From the IMG/VR virus record IMGVR_UViG_3300042506_000135, positions 1 through 20,185 of that record: 20,185 nt of DNA. The stretch is one strand, 5' to 3'. Source of the stretch: a virus. This document shows, piece after piece, positions 3 to 13,800 of the stretch. Both the position numbers and the translations under genes were made by a program. Within the stretch, counting starts at the first letter, position 1. Every line of letters begins with the position of its first letter. The notes under the pieces were generated by a model. The model ran no database searches and was not told the origin of the DNA. It saw nothing but the letters and a program-made list of their open reading frames with translations.

Positions 3-470
3 ATTGAAAAACTTGTTGGTATTGCAGACGTTCACATAATACACAATCCATCAAATCATGATTATATGGCTGGGTGGTATTTAGCCCAAACTATACAAGC
101 GTGGTTTAAACTAAGTAAAAATATAACTTTTGATACATCAATAAGCCACCGTAAAGCGTTTGTTTATGGAGATAACCTAATTGGCTCAACTCATGGTGAT
201 GGTGCTAAGAATCAAGATTTGCCATTATTGATGGCTCAGGAGTTTAAAAAAGAATGGGCTAATACAAAACACCGTTATATTTATACTCACCACGTACACC
301 ATAAAACATCAAAAGATTATATCGGAATAACAGTTGAAAGCTCACGTAGCCCATCGGGAACGGATAGTTGGCATCACAAACAAGGGTATCAACACTCATC
401 AAAAGCAATAGAAGCATACCTTCACCACCCAGTATATGGTCAGATAATGCGGCTCACCCATAAATTCTAA
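3..470 (+). CDS. Calcineurin-like metallophosphoesterase, C-terminal part (cut by window edge)
   Basis: This reading frame is open from the window edge, so only the last 155 codons are seen; the ATG at 66 is internal. It shows the metallophosphoesterase pattern in order: an NHD triad (positions 54-62, matching the family GNHD metal site), a THGD motif after 'DNLIGS', and 'YTHHVHH' near the end, matching the C-terminal GHxHH metal ligands. Phage members of this family are usually annotated as DNA-repair-exonuclease-like or phosphodiesterase proteins, and the substrate here is unknown. The N-terminal DxH motif would lie upstream. The last codons (cgg ctc acc) are unusually GC-rich for this genome. 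They are repeated with synonymous changes at 875-901, after the HNH gene that follows four bases downstream, so the gene's 3' end seems to have been replaced by a mobile element. Confidence 0.8.
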   Translation: MEKLVGIADVHIIHNPSNHDYMAGWYLAQTIQAWFKLSKNITFDTSISHRKAFVYGDNLIGSTHGDGAKNQDLPLLMAQEFKKEWANTKHRYIYTHHVHHKTSKDYIGITVESSRSPSGTDSWHHKQGYQHSSKAIEAYLHHPVYGQIMRLTHKF

Positions 471-474
471 GGCT

Positions 475-894
475 ATGAAAACTTGTAATTTATGTAATAA
501 AGAAAAACAAATTATTGAATTTGTTAAAAGAAGTAATAGAACTTCAGGAACTCAACCATATTGTAAAGATTGCCATAATAAAAAAATGAGAAATAAATAT
601 GATTCTAAAGTAATGAAGGATTATGATTTAAAAAGAGCTTATGGTATTGATTTAAAACAATATGAAGAAATGTTTTTAGAACAAAAAGGTTGTTGTAAAA
701 TCTGTAATAAACATATTTCTCAATTAAATAATAAACATAAAAAGAGTTTATGTGTTGACCATTGCCACGAAACAAAAAAAATAAGGGGTTTGTTATGTGA
801 TAAATGTAATAGGGGAATAGGGCTACTTAACGACGACGTAAAAATACTAAGTAGTGCAATTGAATACTTAAAAAATAATGAGATTAACACATAA
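475..894 (+). CDS. HNH endonuclease, recombination endonuclease VII type (probable homing endonuclease)
   Basis: A 139-aa protein with two zinc-binding sections. The N-terminal knuckle has C4-x2-C7 and C30-x2-C33. The C-terminal endonuclease VII fold has C74-x2-C77, the catalytic DHCH at 95-98, and C108-x2-C111 within 'RGLLCDKCN', as in T4 gp49-like enzymes, where the Asp-His-His set binds the catalytic metal. Such proteins nick or cut DNA. Free-standing copies scattered among phage genes usually act as homing endonucleases that spread themselves. The gene starts four bases after the phosphoesterase stop. It ends inside a leftover copy of the phosphoesterase 3' end, its stop at 892-894 being out of frame with the remnant. 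Its AT-rich codons contrast with the GC-richer host-gene tail just before it. Family assignment is firm; homing is inferred from the duplicated host tail. Confidence 0.92.
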   Translation: MKTCNLCNKEKQIIEFVKRSNRTSGTQPYCKDCHNKKMRNKYDSKVMKDYDLKRAYGIDLKQYEEMFLEQKGCCKICNKHISQLNNKHKKSLCVDHCHETKKIRGLLCDKCNRGIGLLNDDVKILSSAIEYLKNNEINT

Positions 895-901
895 ATTTTA
901 A
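875..901 (+). repeat. Remnant of the phosphoesterase 3' end, recoded relative to 444-470
   Basis: Read in its own frame this stretch encodes IMRLTHKF and a stop, exactly the last eight residues and stop of the phosphoesterase at 444-470. DNA identity is only 21 of 27, because Arg, Leu, Thr and Phe use different codons (aga/cgg, tta/ctc, aca/acc, ttt/ttc). A stop codon lies two codons upstream in this frame, so it is not translated. The next gene starts four bases later, as expected if this is the original junction before the HNH gene arrived. Confidence 0.85.
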
Positions 902-2715: not shown

Positions 2716-3547
2716 ATTTGCATTCCGTAAATATCTCGCATGAGTCATTTAACAAGTCTAATTGTATATTTGAATCTTCGTTGTCGTTGTTAACTTTTCC
2801 GTTATACTCTTTAGATTGTCTTAAAATATCTTCAACATTTCTAGAACCTCTAAATATAGAATAACCTTTGCTATATAACAACTCCATTCTTTTAAAAAAA
2901 TCAAATGCCGATGGTGTTTCTTTAGCTATTTGAAATAGCTTTTTATCGCTTTTTTTATAGCAGGTTATACAATTCCCTTGATAACCTTTTAAGTTTAATC
3001 TAAACGGCATTTGTTTCCAATAAAAATTTATATGTTTTTTTGTAACAGGAATAAAATCTTTTTGGATTAATGGGTAAATAATACCTAATTTTTTATAATT
3101 GGGATTCATTCTATCAAATTCATCACTCCTTATACCTAATGCGAGTAAGTATTTTTGACCGTTAAAATACTCTTTAGCGAAAGATTTAACAGGGGATAAT
3201 TTTAACTCCCTTGTACAATGTAAAAAATTAGTTGTGGGTAATCCGTATTTTTTAATGACATCTTCAAATGGTTCGCCATTTCTACTTGCTGATTTAAAAT
3301 CTATTATTTTATGTCTAGTGCCTTTACCTTTTTCTTTATTTACAACACATTCAATCCAATTAATTTTAAAACCAAATTCATTCTCACAATTGTTTATAAA
3401 CTCTAATGTAGGTTCACTTTCCTGTCCTGTATTAGCGAAAACAAAAACCATGTTATATTCATTATTTTTATGTTTAAAAAGCCATTGCGCCATAAAAGCG
3501 GAGGTCTCCCCTCCGCTAAATGTAACTAATAAATTTGGTTTTTCCAT
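2714..3547 (-). CDS. PAPS reductase-like PP-loop protein, copy 1
   Basis: A 277-aa member of the PAPS reductase / adenine nucleotide alpha-hydrolase superfamily. The classical PP-loop SGGETS is at 11-16, followed by 'FANTGQE' (37-43), 'CTRELK' (111-116), 'GIRSDE' (138-143) and a 'NCITC' pair (192-196). It is therefore a likely ATP-pyrophosphatase or sulfonucleotide-type enzyme. Phage homologues are common but their substrate is not known. It differs from the 235-aa protein in loop sequence and length, so the two are distant relatives rather than a recent duplication. The start overlaps the gp157 stop (TAATG). The gene is bracketed by a 30-bp direct repeat that includes the gp157 end and its own start, so it looks like an inserted cassette of 849 bp. 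The C-terminal ~30 residues are acidic and Asn-rich. Confidence 0.87.
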   Translation of the reverse strand: MEKPNLLVTFSGGETSAFMAQWLFKHKNNEYNMVFVFANTGQESEPTLEFINNCENEFGFKINWIECVVNKEKGKGTRHKIIDFKSASRNGEPFEDVIKKYGLPTTNFLHCTRELKLSPVKSFAKEYFNGQKYLLALGIRSDEFDRMNPNYKKLGIIYPLIQKDFIPVTKKHINFYWKQMPFRLNLKGYQGNCITCYKKSDKKLFQIAKETPSAFDFFKRMELLYSKGYSIFRGSRNVEDILRQSKEYNGKVNNDNEDSNIQLDLLNDSCEIFTECK

Positions 3548-3564
3548 TACTTAATTTGTAGGTT
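3535..3564 (-). repeat. 30-bp direct repeat, upstream copy
   Basis: This copy covers the last codons of gp157 (AAC CTA CAA ATT AAG TAA) and, overlapping them, the start ATGGAAAAACCAA of the 277-aa gene. The second copy lies 849 bp away at 2686-2715. Because it carries functional parts of two genes, it is probably the original sequence and the other copy the duplicate. Confidence 0.9.
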
Positions 3565-11171: not shown

Positions 11172-11693
11172 TTATTTATAAAGCCATTTAAAGCCGCCTG
11201 CAGTCTTTCTAACTAAAGAACCGTTTGCAACTTGTGATATACTTCTGTAATCTATTCCTGTTAATCTACCAGCTTCCCTTGTTGATAGAAATACGTTAAC
11301 TATATTATCGTTTTTATCTACTTGATAAACTGTCTTTTTTAAAGGACTTTTAACAAAAGAATTTAATTTTCGTTCCGCAGTATAAAAATTACCCTTTTGA
11401 CTTGGTGGTTTATTACCGCCGTTATTTTTATTTAATAAATTACAACCTTTAAATTTATATAACTCAATATATTCAGCCTCAATAAACTCAGCTAATTCAA
11501 TGTTATCAACTTCTTTTAATATATTCATAATAGGCTTATAACCAGATAACCTAATTTCTTTAATTAAGTTAGATTTTTCAATGTTATTATCTCCCTGATA
11601 ATGATTATAAAATCTATTATAAGGGTTTTTTGTACATCCTACATAGAATATATTTTTATCAATTGGGTTTATTAAATTATATACGCTAATCAT
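11172..11693 (-). CDS. GIY-YIG endonuclease with NUMOD1-like DNA-binding end (homing endonuclease)
   Basis: A 173-aa protein starting at 11693, one base after the portal stop. A longer frame upstream runs antisense to the portal's own reading and is not used. The N-terminal nuclease domain reads 'ISVYNLINPIDKNIFYVGCTKNPYNRFYNHY', the GIY-YIG core with V-Y-N and F-Y-V-G strands and the conserved Arg in 'NRFYNH', and Glu87 in 'EAEYIELYK' as the expected metal-binding Glu. The C-terminal ~55 residues ('TVYQVDKNDNIVNVFLSTREAGRLTGIDYRSISQVANGS') form a NUMOD1-type helix-turn-helix, typical of phage homing endonucleases. It fits exactly between portal and connector (1-base gaps on each side). It probably spreads itself between related phages; virion function is not expected. 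Confidence 0.9.
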   Translation of the reverse strand: MISVYNLINPIDKNIFYVGCTKNPYNRFYNHYQGDNNIEKSNLIKEIRLSGYKPIMNILKEVDNIELAEFIEAEYIELYKFKGCNLLNKNNGGNKPPSQKGNFYTAERKLNSFVKSPLKKTVYQVDKNDNIVNVFLSTREAGRLTGIDYRSISQVANGSLVRKTAGGFKWLYK

Positions 11694-11694
11694 C

Positions 11695-13800
11695 TTAATT
11701 TTTTTTAGTTCTTGATTTTGTAACGGCCAACCATATATGCCTACAATAAGCAGTTGTTTGTTTTGTTTCAGGATTAGTATAAAAACCCCCCCTAAACGAC
11801 CAAGCATCGTCTCCAAAGGCATTGCTTATATCATCTATTTGATTACTAGTCCAACTTCTAATTTTACTTAACAAAAGCATTTTTTGACAAAAAACCCTTG
11901 ACTTTCCGCCGGGTACTAAATCGGGAGCATCTGGTCTTTTTACATATTTGTAAACGGTGTATAGTTCCGTTTCAATAGTTGGTGTGTTAGTTTCTAAACC
12001 TTTAGGCGTGATAGTTATTGTATTGTTTATTGTAGATATTAAACCTGCAACAACTAAACTGTTAATTATATTCTTAACCGTTTCAACATCTAATCCTAAA
12101 ATCTTTGCAGTCTTTTCAGGTGTTGTTTCGGGTGCGCCTTTTAATAAATCTAATACTTGTTTTTCTGTATCCGTTACAAATTTATGTTTTTCAAACTCAA
12201 ACTTAAAAGCTTCCGTATTATTTTCAAATGAAACAAACTCTTCGCTTATAATTTCATCGTCATTATCTTCTAAACTATTTTTTTCAAATAATTCTAAAAC
12301 AAAATCAGTCATATCAACCAACTTATCAAACTTACTAAACTGTGCTTCTGGTGTTGCAAATAAAACATTAATATCTTGGTCTGTTAAATTATATGAAGTT
12401 TTAAGCTTCCATATAGCTATACTTTTTTCTGTTTTACCGTCCCTTACTGATTTTAATAAGTTTTTTAAATCTCGCCATTGTTTAGCTGGCATTTTTTGAA
12501 TATGATTATTAACTTGGTTTTCTGGAATGTCTGCCATATCACCATCAACCGTTACTTTATCTTTAATATCAATACCTAACTTTTTAGCGTAATGTTCACG
12601 TAAAGTATCTAAATCAAATAGTGATTGTAATAAAGCAGTATCAAAAGGTAAATCAACATTAGCAGGTTGTTTCTGTTTTATTTCTAATAAAGATAAATCA
12701 ACACCGTTAACGGCTGCTAAATCTTTAATAATATTTAAGTGTATCTCTTGTCTATGTTCAATATAACTAAACAACCATCTTTCAAACTTTTGTAAATAAA
12801 TAGTGTTATCGCCAATGTTAACCGAGCCATCAAAAATAGCTGCTAAAGCAGGATCTGTTCTATGGGCTGTAAAGATATTTTGTTGTGAACGTTTAGCAAC
12901 CTGCTCAAACATTTTATCTAAATCACTTTGTGAAAACGTTGTTAACTCAGCTTTTTGACCGCCTTTGTCAACAAAGTTAAACATCATTTTACCGGTGTTA
13001 GAACTACCTTTGAATTTACGGTCAAAGAATTTAGCGTATTTTCTTTGCTCTTCCTGAGTTGGCTCGCCATTGAATAAAGATAACATAGCACTTGCAAACA
13101 TTCCATTCTTTAAATGTGAATAGTTAAAGTTAGTTATCTCAATATTTGTTTCAATGTCTTGTAAACCTTGTTGGTAGTTTGGTGCTGGATAAATATTGCC
13201 AAATTCCATTGCACTCATTACTTCTGTTTTGTAGTAAAGTATTTGAGTTCCTGTTCTAATGTTAGGATTAAAAATAGGATATTCAATAAATGATTTATGC
13301 TTATGTGCTTGGTCATTTACACATCCATTATCGTCAACCCATTGCTCACAATAGAAAAGAGTTTTACCGTCGGGTGAACGTCTAAATTTGCTAAATTCTT
13401 GGTTATAAACTTCTGCTATTTTACCGTTAAAATCGTAAACTATTTGTAAAGCAATACCATCAAATATCTCAAATGGTGTTACGTTCTTTCTAAATAAAGA
13501 GTTCCAATCTTCAAAGCGATTAGCGTGTGATAAGAATTTATCGTATTGCGCTTGTTGTGCTAAAGTTAATTTGCTTTCGTCATAACATAAGCCACGTCCA
13601 TAAACATGGTCAGCCTTAGCCTTTATAATAGCACCGTGAACGGCATCTCTATTGTATAGTTCTAATAAGTAATTAGGATGTGAGTTATGCTCACCCCATT
13701 GTAGATATTTGCCACCCGACATTTTTCTGATAGCAGGTTGAAACGAGCTATCAAATTCAATTTGTAAAAGGTTACCGACCTGTGTTATATTATTGCCCAT
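11695..13800 (-). CDS. Portal protein with C-terminal winged-helix and CRH domain fusion, 701 aa
   Basis: The first ~430 residues carry the portal features: 'GGKYLQWGEHNSHPNYLLELYNRDAVHGAIIKAKADHVYGRGL' at the start, then mixed wing/clip segments and 'QKFERWLFSYIEHRQEI', like portal-like proteins of Bacteroidota phages. It forms the dodecameric ring through which DNA enters the capsid. Around residues 545-610 is a clear winged helix ('TEKQVLDLLKGAPETTPEKTAKILGLDVETVKNIINSLVVAGLI'). The last ~85 residues ('RPDAPDLVPGGKSRVFCQKM', 'GGFYTNPETKQTTAYCRHIW') form a Cys/His domain also seen fused to XkdF-type head proteins in other phages, as I recall. The gene overlaps the 136-aa gene by 11 bases. 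At 701 aa it is clearly longer than typical portals of ~450-520 aa. Confidence 0.82.
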   Translation of the reverse strand: MGNNITQVGNLLQIEFDSSFQPAIRKMSGGKYLQWGEHNSHPNYLLELYNRDAVHGAIIKAKADHVYGRGLCYDESKLTLAQQAQYDKFLSHANRFEDWNSLFRKNVTPFEIFDGIALQIVYDFNGKIAEVYNQEFSKFRRSPDGKTLFYCEQWVDDNGCVNDQAHKHKSFIEYPIFNPNIRTGTQILYYKTEVMSAMEFGNIYPAPNYQQGLQDIETNIEITNFNYSHLKNGMFASAMLSLFNGEPTQEEQRKYAKFFDRKFKGSSNTGKMMFNFVDKGGQKAELTTFSQSDLDKMFEQVAKRSQQNIFTAHRTDPALAAIFDGSVNIGDNTIYLQKFERWLFSYIEHRQEIHLNIIKDLAAVNGVDLSLLEIKQKQPANVDLPFDTALLQSLFDLDTLREHYAKKLGIDIKDKVTVDGDMADIPENQVNNHIQKMPAKQWRDLKNLLKSVRDGKTEKSIAIWKLKTSYNLTDQDINVLFATPEAQFSKFDKLVDMTDFVLELFEKNSLEDNDDEIISEEFVSFENNTEAFKFEFEKHKFVTDTEKQVLDLLKGAPETTPEKTAKILGLDVETVKNIINSLVVAGLISTINNTITITPKGLETNTPTIETELYTVYKYVKRPDAPDLVPGGKSRVFCQKMLLLSKIRSWTSNQIDDISNAFGDDAWSFRGGFYTNPETKQTTAYCRHIWLAVTKSRTKKN

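Follow-up and report, generated by a model that had tools for sequence, protein, structure and literature searches.

Our study identified what is very probably a homing element that substitutes its own version for the 3' end of the gene it targets, located in a stretch of viral DNA of 20,185 nucleotides (positions 1 to 20,185 of IMG/VR virus record IMGVR_UViG_3300042506_000135), hereafter called the window. At the level of sequence, the analysis shows that the insertion is optional, that the breakpoints are sharp, that gene endings have been replaced and displaced, and that the pattern recurs with two nuclease families. The features on which the analysis is based are the following.

3 to 470, plus strand: 3' part of a metallophosphoesterase-type gene ('DNA repair exonuclease'; phrog_704, E 3e-40)
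384 to 470, plus strand: putative replacement block, the last 28 codons and the stop, recoded relative to locus L007 (from the mismatch pattern)
444 to 470, plus strand: upstream copy of IMRLTHKF*, the putative replacement copy, ATAATGCGGCTCACCCATAAATTCTAA
475 to 894, plus strand: predicted free-standing homing endonuclease of the HNH / Endonuclease VII type, 139 aa (Pfam Endonuclease_7, 9e-20; phrog_2633, 1e-40)
875 to 901, plus strand: downstream copy of IMRLTHKF*, the putative displaced native ending of the host gene, ATAATGAGATTAACACATAAATTTTAA
906 to 1259, plus strand: next gene, function not assigned (no Pfam or PHROGs match)
11172 to 11693, minus strand: predicted GIY-YIG homing endonuclease gene at the portal 3' end (Pfam GIY-YIG, 2e-7; phrog_314, 3e-8)
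11695 to 11740 (far limit approximate), minus strand: portal ending, recoded and one codon longer than in uninterrupted portals (measured on L230/L232)

The phosphoesterase reading frame is truncated by the start of the window, and its full-length form is present in L003; it gave no Pfam match at 0.01 and no PDB match in a sequence search. The first-pass annotation had claimed that its ending, IMRLTHKF*, is encoded twice, and our study confirms this, with 21 of 27 nucleotides and 8 of 8 residues identical between the copies and four of the nine codons changed, all synonymously (CGG/AGA, CTC/TTA, ACC/ACA, and TTC/TTT). The downstream copy had also been described as the more AT-rich one, which agrees with third-position GC contents of 0.125 for this copy, 0.62 for the upstream copy, and 0.25 for the rest of the gene slice; likewise, the last HNH codons do overlap the old host-gene tail, with the HNH stop (TAA, 892-894) falling within the downstream copy but read in a different frame. 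Across all six frames, the window contains 1346 distinct words of eight residues plus a stop, two of which occur twice, IMRLTHKF* being one of them. The other corresponds to a repeated gene leader: two minus-strand genes with starts at 2686-2712 and 3535-3561 have a near-identical leader and first codons (AAATTAAGTAATGGAAAAACCAA), and the plus-strand reading of this leader is the only other repeated word. The 475-894 junction was also found on five further IMG/VR contigs (L002-L006, among the best 80 of 162 candidates), which makes an assembly error unlikely, and we rejected that explanation. The duplicated phosphoesterase ending is confirmed as real and recurrent. In L002/L005, the 3' end of the phosphoesterase and the HNH gene are identical to those of the window over about 950 nt and the next gene is 87% identical, as expected after a recent transfer; the divergence distant from the gene in this comparison may partly reflect an alignment shift.

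Special attention was given to establishing which of the two endings is native. The closest HNH-less relative among the matches listed, L007, has a phosphoesterase protein 98% identical to that of the window and about 97% identity upstream of the last 28 codons. The window gene (as in L003) differs from it at 24 of 756 positions and then at 21 of 84 in the last 28 codons, 18 of which differ, 17 of them synonymously; the Fisher value of this contrast (5e-11) is descriptive because the tail lengths, in this and the other mismatch pairs, were set after the breakpoints had been seen. This pair, like the other mismatch pairs in our study, was selected as a close, clean pair with and without the nuclease and was compared without gaps. 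The breakpoint falls between -73 and -82, so that the recoded stretch begins at about position 384. Relative to the outgroup L008, the bodies of the two genes are equally close (identity of.808 for the window and.805 for L007), whereas in the last 85 nt L007 is the nearer one (.800 against.718), which points to the ending of the window as the changed one. The downstream copy shares its ending, ACACATAAATTTTAA, with L008 and L009, in which the gene is uninterrupted. From the comparisons with L007, L008, and L009, the most plausible reading is that the native end was displaced to the downstream position and that the upstream copy replaced it; the phosphoesterase of the window would then be a chimera of its own 5' part and a replacement 3' block. 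When 73 phosphoesterase loci, many of them near-duplicates and a few carrying a nuclease, were compared with the two copies, 45 were nearer to the downstream copy, 14 nearer to the upstream copy, and 14 equally near.

The proposal that the insertion supplied a recoded ending at the 3' end of the host gene is therefore upheld by these relatives, except for its length: the 21 mismatches are distributed across 28 codons, and the recoded block covers about 84 nt rather than the eight codons first noticed. An exact empty site, with the 875-901 sequence directly before gene 906, had also been predicted and was not found; L007 ends instead in IMRLTHKFI*, one residue more, followed by a 29-nt spacer and the same downstream gene. 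In the last eight codons alone, L007 matches each copy at 20 of 24 positions and is equally far from both. On sequence grounds, L007 appears to be a close empty allele rather than the exact parent. By reading of the loci, a gene other than the phosphoesterase precedes the gene-906 relatives in 12 of the 20 fetched; this preceding gene (L083-L100) ends in KIVNNKIY* or similar, and the L007 spacer holds the tail of a gene of this type, between the phosphoesterase and gene 906.

The HNH gene starts 4 nt past the host-gene stop. Among named phages, its relatives include F-CphI of S-PM2, with 43% identity, and genes of T7-like Klebsiella phages, with 46%, and its best PDB matches by sequence profile are Hpy99I and T4 Endonuclease VII. 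In an alignment of eight sequences that includes F-CphI (A1), residues D95, H96, H98, R104, and N112 are invariant, as are the CxxC cysteine pairs C74/C77 and C108/C111; these correspond to the DHHRN catalytic and zinc-binding residues listed in the available text of PMC6083498. The product is accordingly predicted to be a free-standing homing endonuclease of the DHHRN type (EndoVII motif, F-CphI-like). It is an optional gene, missing from the close relative L007 and, in the case of the related gene of L051, from L042. On its own strand, the insert contains no reading frame of 50 aa or more besides the HNH gene, which is overlapped by two reverse-strand frames of 56 aa. We considered and rejected an integrase-type element at the gene 3' end, as the insert holds only the HNH frame and no site-specific recombinase.

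The same phosphoesterase gene has been a target in other phages. We found a relative of it in 107 fetched loci (repeat fetches of the same contig counted), and a genome scan added three loci from Flavobacteriaceae MAGs (L257-L259), which entered the donor scan only. In L051, an HNH gene 55% identical to that of the window lies downstream of the same host gene; compared with the empty L042, there are 16 mismatches in 750 positions and then 27 in 90, about half of the changed codons being nonsynonymous, and a short remnant of the old end follows the HNH gene and continues into the downstream DNA of L042. We also conducted a change-point scan of 59 close pairs among 83 distinct gene ends; the pairs come from about three lineages and hence are not independent. 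The log-likelihood ratio (LLR) exceeded 10 in 13 of the 18 pairs differing in nuclease content, ten of these breaking between -100 and -70; among the 36 nuclease-free pairs, 8 exceeded this value, three of them with a breakpoint in that range, all involving L036, which has a swapped tail without a nuclease.

A second nuclease family occupies this position in 13 of the 23 loci of a GIY-YIG scan (L124-L136), where the GIY-YIG gene lies behind the phosphoesterase; 19 of the 23 loci were examined for old ends. By reading of the DNA, the old end is retained behind the nuclease in L127, L128, L129, and L132-L136, as LTHIF*, VSHIF*, LTNIF*, or THIF*, and none was seen in L124-L126, L130, and L131. 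One GIY-YIG lineage has two ending alleles that switch at about -93. A counterexample is L128, whose last 42 aligned nt are the same as those of the nuclease-free L081 and which has a 14-nt exact repeat on either side of the nuclease gene. At the GIY-YIG insertions (L128, L132, L135, and others), the phosphoesterase often reads into T-rich DNA before the nuclease, which adds a hydrophobic tail such as SLLFVFSLYL. Similar tails occur in L034, L065, and L072, where no nuclease gene was found, and they are perhaps scars; L039 carries at 2709-2951 a GIY-YIG copy with an in-frame stop that looks degenerate.

In the window, the 3' end of the portal gene is occupied by a GIY-YIG gene, predicted to be a second element of the same kind. 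This insertion is present in 6 and absent in 15 of the 21 portal loci examined, from a total of 27. The portal figures come from L230 (with GIY-YIG) and L232 (without), several other pairs having failed on indels in the ungapped comparison. These two differ at 1 of 798 positions and then at 14 of 42; over a longer stretch there are 8 mismatches between -1080 and -43. In the L230 tail, 11 of the 14 codons are changed, 10 of them synonymously, which amounts to 11 of the 13 codons that could change, and there are also a new stop and one extra codon, explained by the overlap of the native stop with the start codon of the next gene. Among close nuclease-free portal pairs, 12 of 14 are identical over the last 42 nt, and the remaining two, with 8-9 mismatches, both involve L235. 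L235 has no nuclease at its portal, whose ending combines native and replacement-like parts; it may be a resistant allele produced by partial conversion. As a separate observation, the GIY-YIG proteins of L230 and of the window are mosaic, near-identical in the C-terminal half and different in the N-terminal nuclease half. A search for the portal C-terminus in named phages gave no match.

Sharp switches of the same type were identified in three other host genes. The first is a scaffold-like gene (phrog_28737, which carries no function, so that the name is a guess), for which 22 loci from the best 80 of 235 candidates were examined. Four of them carry the HNH gene (L275, L276, L279, and L296), and 11 loci without it have a 98-100% identical protein. 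L275 (with HNH) and L280 (empty) differ at 1 of 816 positions and then at 10 of 24, with 6 of the 7 changeable codons changed, and the two copies, GATTGGAGTGAGTGA and GACTGGTCAGAATAA, differ; past the HNH gene, the displaced tail and its flank are identical to the empty site over 228 nt. Close HNH-free scaffold pairs, taken as a control, have no mismatches in the last 24 nt. The second is a gene for a Cas4-domain exonuclease, with HNH insertions in L260 (the same contig as L122), L267, and L270 among the 13 of 15 loci examined. Behind the L260 HNH gene lies RKGCDLWLPI*, the native tail of L261-L263, while the L260 gene itself ends in TGCPDNWLPI* and is one codon longer than that of L261. Between L267 and L268 there are 47 mismatches in 741 positions and then 33 in 99, about half of the changed codons being nonsynonymous.

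The third gene is found in cultured Klebsiella phages. In vB_Kpn24-P1, an HNH gene 46% identical to that of the window follows an internal virion protein gene, which differs from that of the HNH-less K80PH1317a at 1 of 320 positions and then at 20 of 88 (8 synonymous and 6 nonsynonymous codon changes and a lost stop). No displaced tail was seen at this Klebsiella locus (L147), and the replaced tail was found by the comparison with K80PH1317a. Phages SH-Kp 152410 and 150004 share this replaced ending but retain only about half of the HNH stretch, so that scars do occur. The kpssk3 and cp10 phages carry an HNH gene at the vB_Kpn24-P1 junction, but their tails have hardly changed, with 2 mismatches over the last 60 positions; in kpssk3, there is one added Arg codon, and the HNH is 37% identical to that of vB_Kpn24-P1. 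It is important to consider that nuclease-free phages differ among themselves in this gene by another sharp block further upstream, and mosaic blocks are therefore not unique to nuclease sites.

To place these cases in context, we surveyed 96 loci of Endonuclease VII-type HNH genes, 76 of them with a usable upstream ORF, against an all-by-all null that includes related loci. The copy of the window locus (L102) scores 43, and the null expects 0.04 of the 100 upstream ORFs at 30 or more. A displaced tail scoring at least 20 was present in 5 of the 76 loci (four lineages), with 0.4 expected. Tail replacement at nuclease genes is not universal. One further set of candidates comprised the best 80 of at least 592.

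The element, as we envisage it, would be a unit formed by an endonuclease gene and, just upstream, a diverged copy of the last codons of its target. During infection of one cell by two phages, the uninterrupted copy of the gene would be cut by the nuclease close to the conserved 3' end, and the break would be repaired from the element-carrying genome. The recipient would thereby gain a chimeric gene, with its own 5' part and the 3' end of the element, followed by the nuclease gene, and its own old ending would be shifted downstream, beyond that gene. The new ending would leave the protein nearly unchanged while removing the target sequence, and it may also be too unlike the displaced copy for recombination and loss of the element. 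From the sequence patterns described above, we infer the cutting, the repair route, the immunity, and the stability of this cycle. In T4-like phages, resistance arises by site polymorphism. As the first-pass annotation had suggested as a possibility, the recoding would likely confer immunity to self-cleavage. Beyond the window, the balance of the evidence moderately favors a general phage class of gene-end-replacing homing elements, in which the rewritten endings would provide both self-immunity and gene repair and the loss of the nuclease would leave scars. Such elements would have evolved separately with HNH/EndoVII and GIY-YIG nucleases and would home into the conserved 3' ends of needed genes, with the phosphoesterase, portal, scaffold-like, Cas4-like exonuclease, and T7-like internal virion protein genes as targets.

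A possible but rather doubtful alternative is that the rewritten endings are passive hitch-hikers, that is, a co-conversion tract from a diverged donor allele that looks synonymous due to protein conservation, with no selection for immunity or for avoidance of repeats. In L051, L267, and vB_Kpn24-P1, nonsynonymous changes account for about half of the altered codons, which fits a foreign allele rather than a tuned recoding; L036 has its swapped tail without a nuclease, and co-conversion beside free-standing phage homing endonucleases is known (PMC2988022, in the text available). However, the diverged tracts are short (24-99 nt) and end at the nuclease, with upstream DNA 94 to nearly 100% identical, and the changeable codons are changed in 6 of 7 cases in the scaffold gene and in 11 of 13 in the portal. 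Moreover, no donor of the recoded endings was present among the fetched loci: the best other matches in the donor scan were 19/27 for the scaffold, 40/48 for the L230 portal, and 64/87 for the phosphoesterase of the window, and the 40/48 match is itself another nuclease-bearing portal.

It is improbable that the recoding serves mainly to keep the two copies of the ending from undergoing homologous deletion rather than to block cleavage. The copies do differ, in the scaffold gene as well as in the window (6 of 27 nt), but a length of 15-27 nt is short for repeats that would recombine in this way, L128 still has its nuclease gene with an exact 14-nt repeat, and the replaced block far exceeds the duplicated part (84 against 27 nt in the window). 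A target-site duplication by transposition-like insertion would account for an insert flanked by two copies, and chance similarity for their resemblance; both are highly improbable, given that a fresh duplication is exact whereas the scaffold gene has one copy unchanged and the other changed at 10 of 24 nt, with 1 mismatch in 816 upstream, that the nearest empty sites contradict it, and that the null of the HNH survey and the word count in the window make chance very unlikely. The least credible alternative, practically negligible, is an intron, such as a group I intron with its endonuclease, or an alternative 3' exon spliced to the downstream ending: this copy does supply an entire ending for the protein, but the upstream copy already completes it, Rfam matched nothing in the window at gathering scores, and, with only 4 nt between the host stop and the HNH start and with the HNH stop inside the downstream copy, the DNA around 475-894 has no non-coding space in which an intron core could fit.

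The homing element proposed here finds its closest parallel in the WHO elements, which lie at FBA1 in yeasts of the genera Torulaspora and Lachancea (Coughlan et al. 2020, PMC7282813; this and the other sources compared here are cited from the portions of text available). For WHO, it has been proposed that the nuclease cuts a sensitive allele and that repair yields the recipient 5' part joined to the 3' end of the element, with the old end left beyond the nuclease. As in WHO (PMC7282813), a nuclease gene lies between a full-length chimeric target and a displaced old 3' fragment, a layout found in the window (384-470, 475-894, and 875-901), L275, and L260; the 5' part is conserved with a sharp switch to a swapped 3' part, and insertion has occurred repeatedly downstream of the same gene. 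In WHO, resistance depends on the allele sequence, and the allele-specific action of Who6 was tested (PMC7282813). The differences are also clear: WHO elements have intein-like zinc-finger nucleases, nuclear yeast genes as targets, and fragments of about 400 bp (PMC7282813), whereas the putative phage elements have replacement blocks of 24-99 nt and HNH/EndoVII and GIY-YIG nucleases, Pfam giving Endonuclease_7 and GIY-YIG and no intein-like zinc-finger nuclease. By analogy, the phage element would work like WHO without being a member of it.

A similar parallel is provided by the mORFs of the fungal mitochondrial genes atp6, atp9, cox2, and nad3, traced to Allomyces atp6 (Beaudet et al. 2013, PMC3630166). 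They also combine an inserted C-terminal coding end and an endonuclease ORF, displace the native C-terminal end downstream, and preserve similar amino acids with different DNA; unlike the phage elements, which are shorter and use two other nuclease families, they are mitochondrial, have longer ends, and have a LAGLIDADG ORF, named for atp6. F-CphI of cyanophage S-PM2 (Fang et al. 2018, PMC6083498) belongs to the same DHHRN family as the HNH of the window, is free-standing, and adjoins its target gene. Its self-cleavage is prevented by a change at the site, which in its case, unlike in the window, is a group I intron in psbA (PMC6083498), and no displaced psbA tail copy is visible past F-CphI (L148). 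The intronless homing of the T4-like seg and mob genes (PMC2988022) resembles our cases in its free-standing HNH and GIY-YIG nucleases beside their targets, in the co-conversion of flanks, and in the overlap with upstream gene ends; in the portions available, no displaced gene ending is described, and the word stem 'duplicat' is absent from the main text.

Free-standing phage homing endonucleases and co-conversion (PMC2988022), as well as replaced-and-displaced endings in yeast and fungal mitochondria, are thus already known from the sources consulted. Our literature search, conducted mostly outside subscription journals and covering the titles and abstract openings of the matches listed, found no paper in which the gene endings beside phage homing endonucleases are displaced or recoded, and the available text of PMC2988022, PMC10448857, and PMC12724721 contains no phage description of replaced-and-displaced endings. 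Our comparisons point to this arrangement in phages with two nuclease families and five host genes. These results extend the WHO/mORF architecture to bacteriophages with unrelated nucleases and suggest convergent evolution toward keeping the target gene working while removing the element's own target site. They would explain why closely related phage genes may differ sharply in their last codons only, and the comparison of native and replaced endings offers a search rule for the natural targets of uncharacterized homing endonucleases. If this reading is true, these elements would drive the chimeric evolution of phage gene ends, and the loss of the nuclease would leave rewritten or lengthened endings behind.
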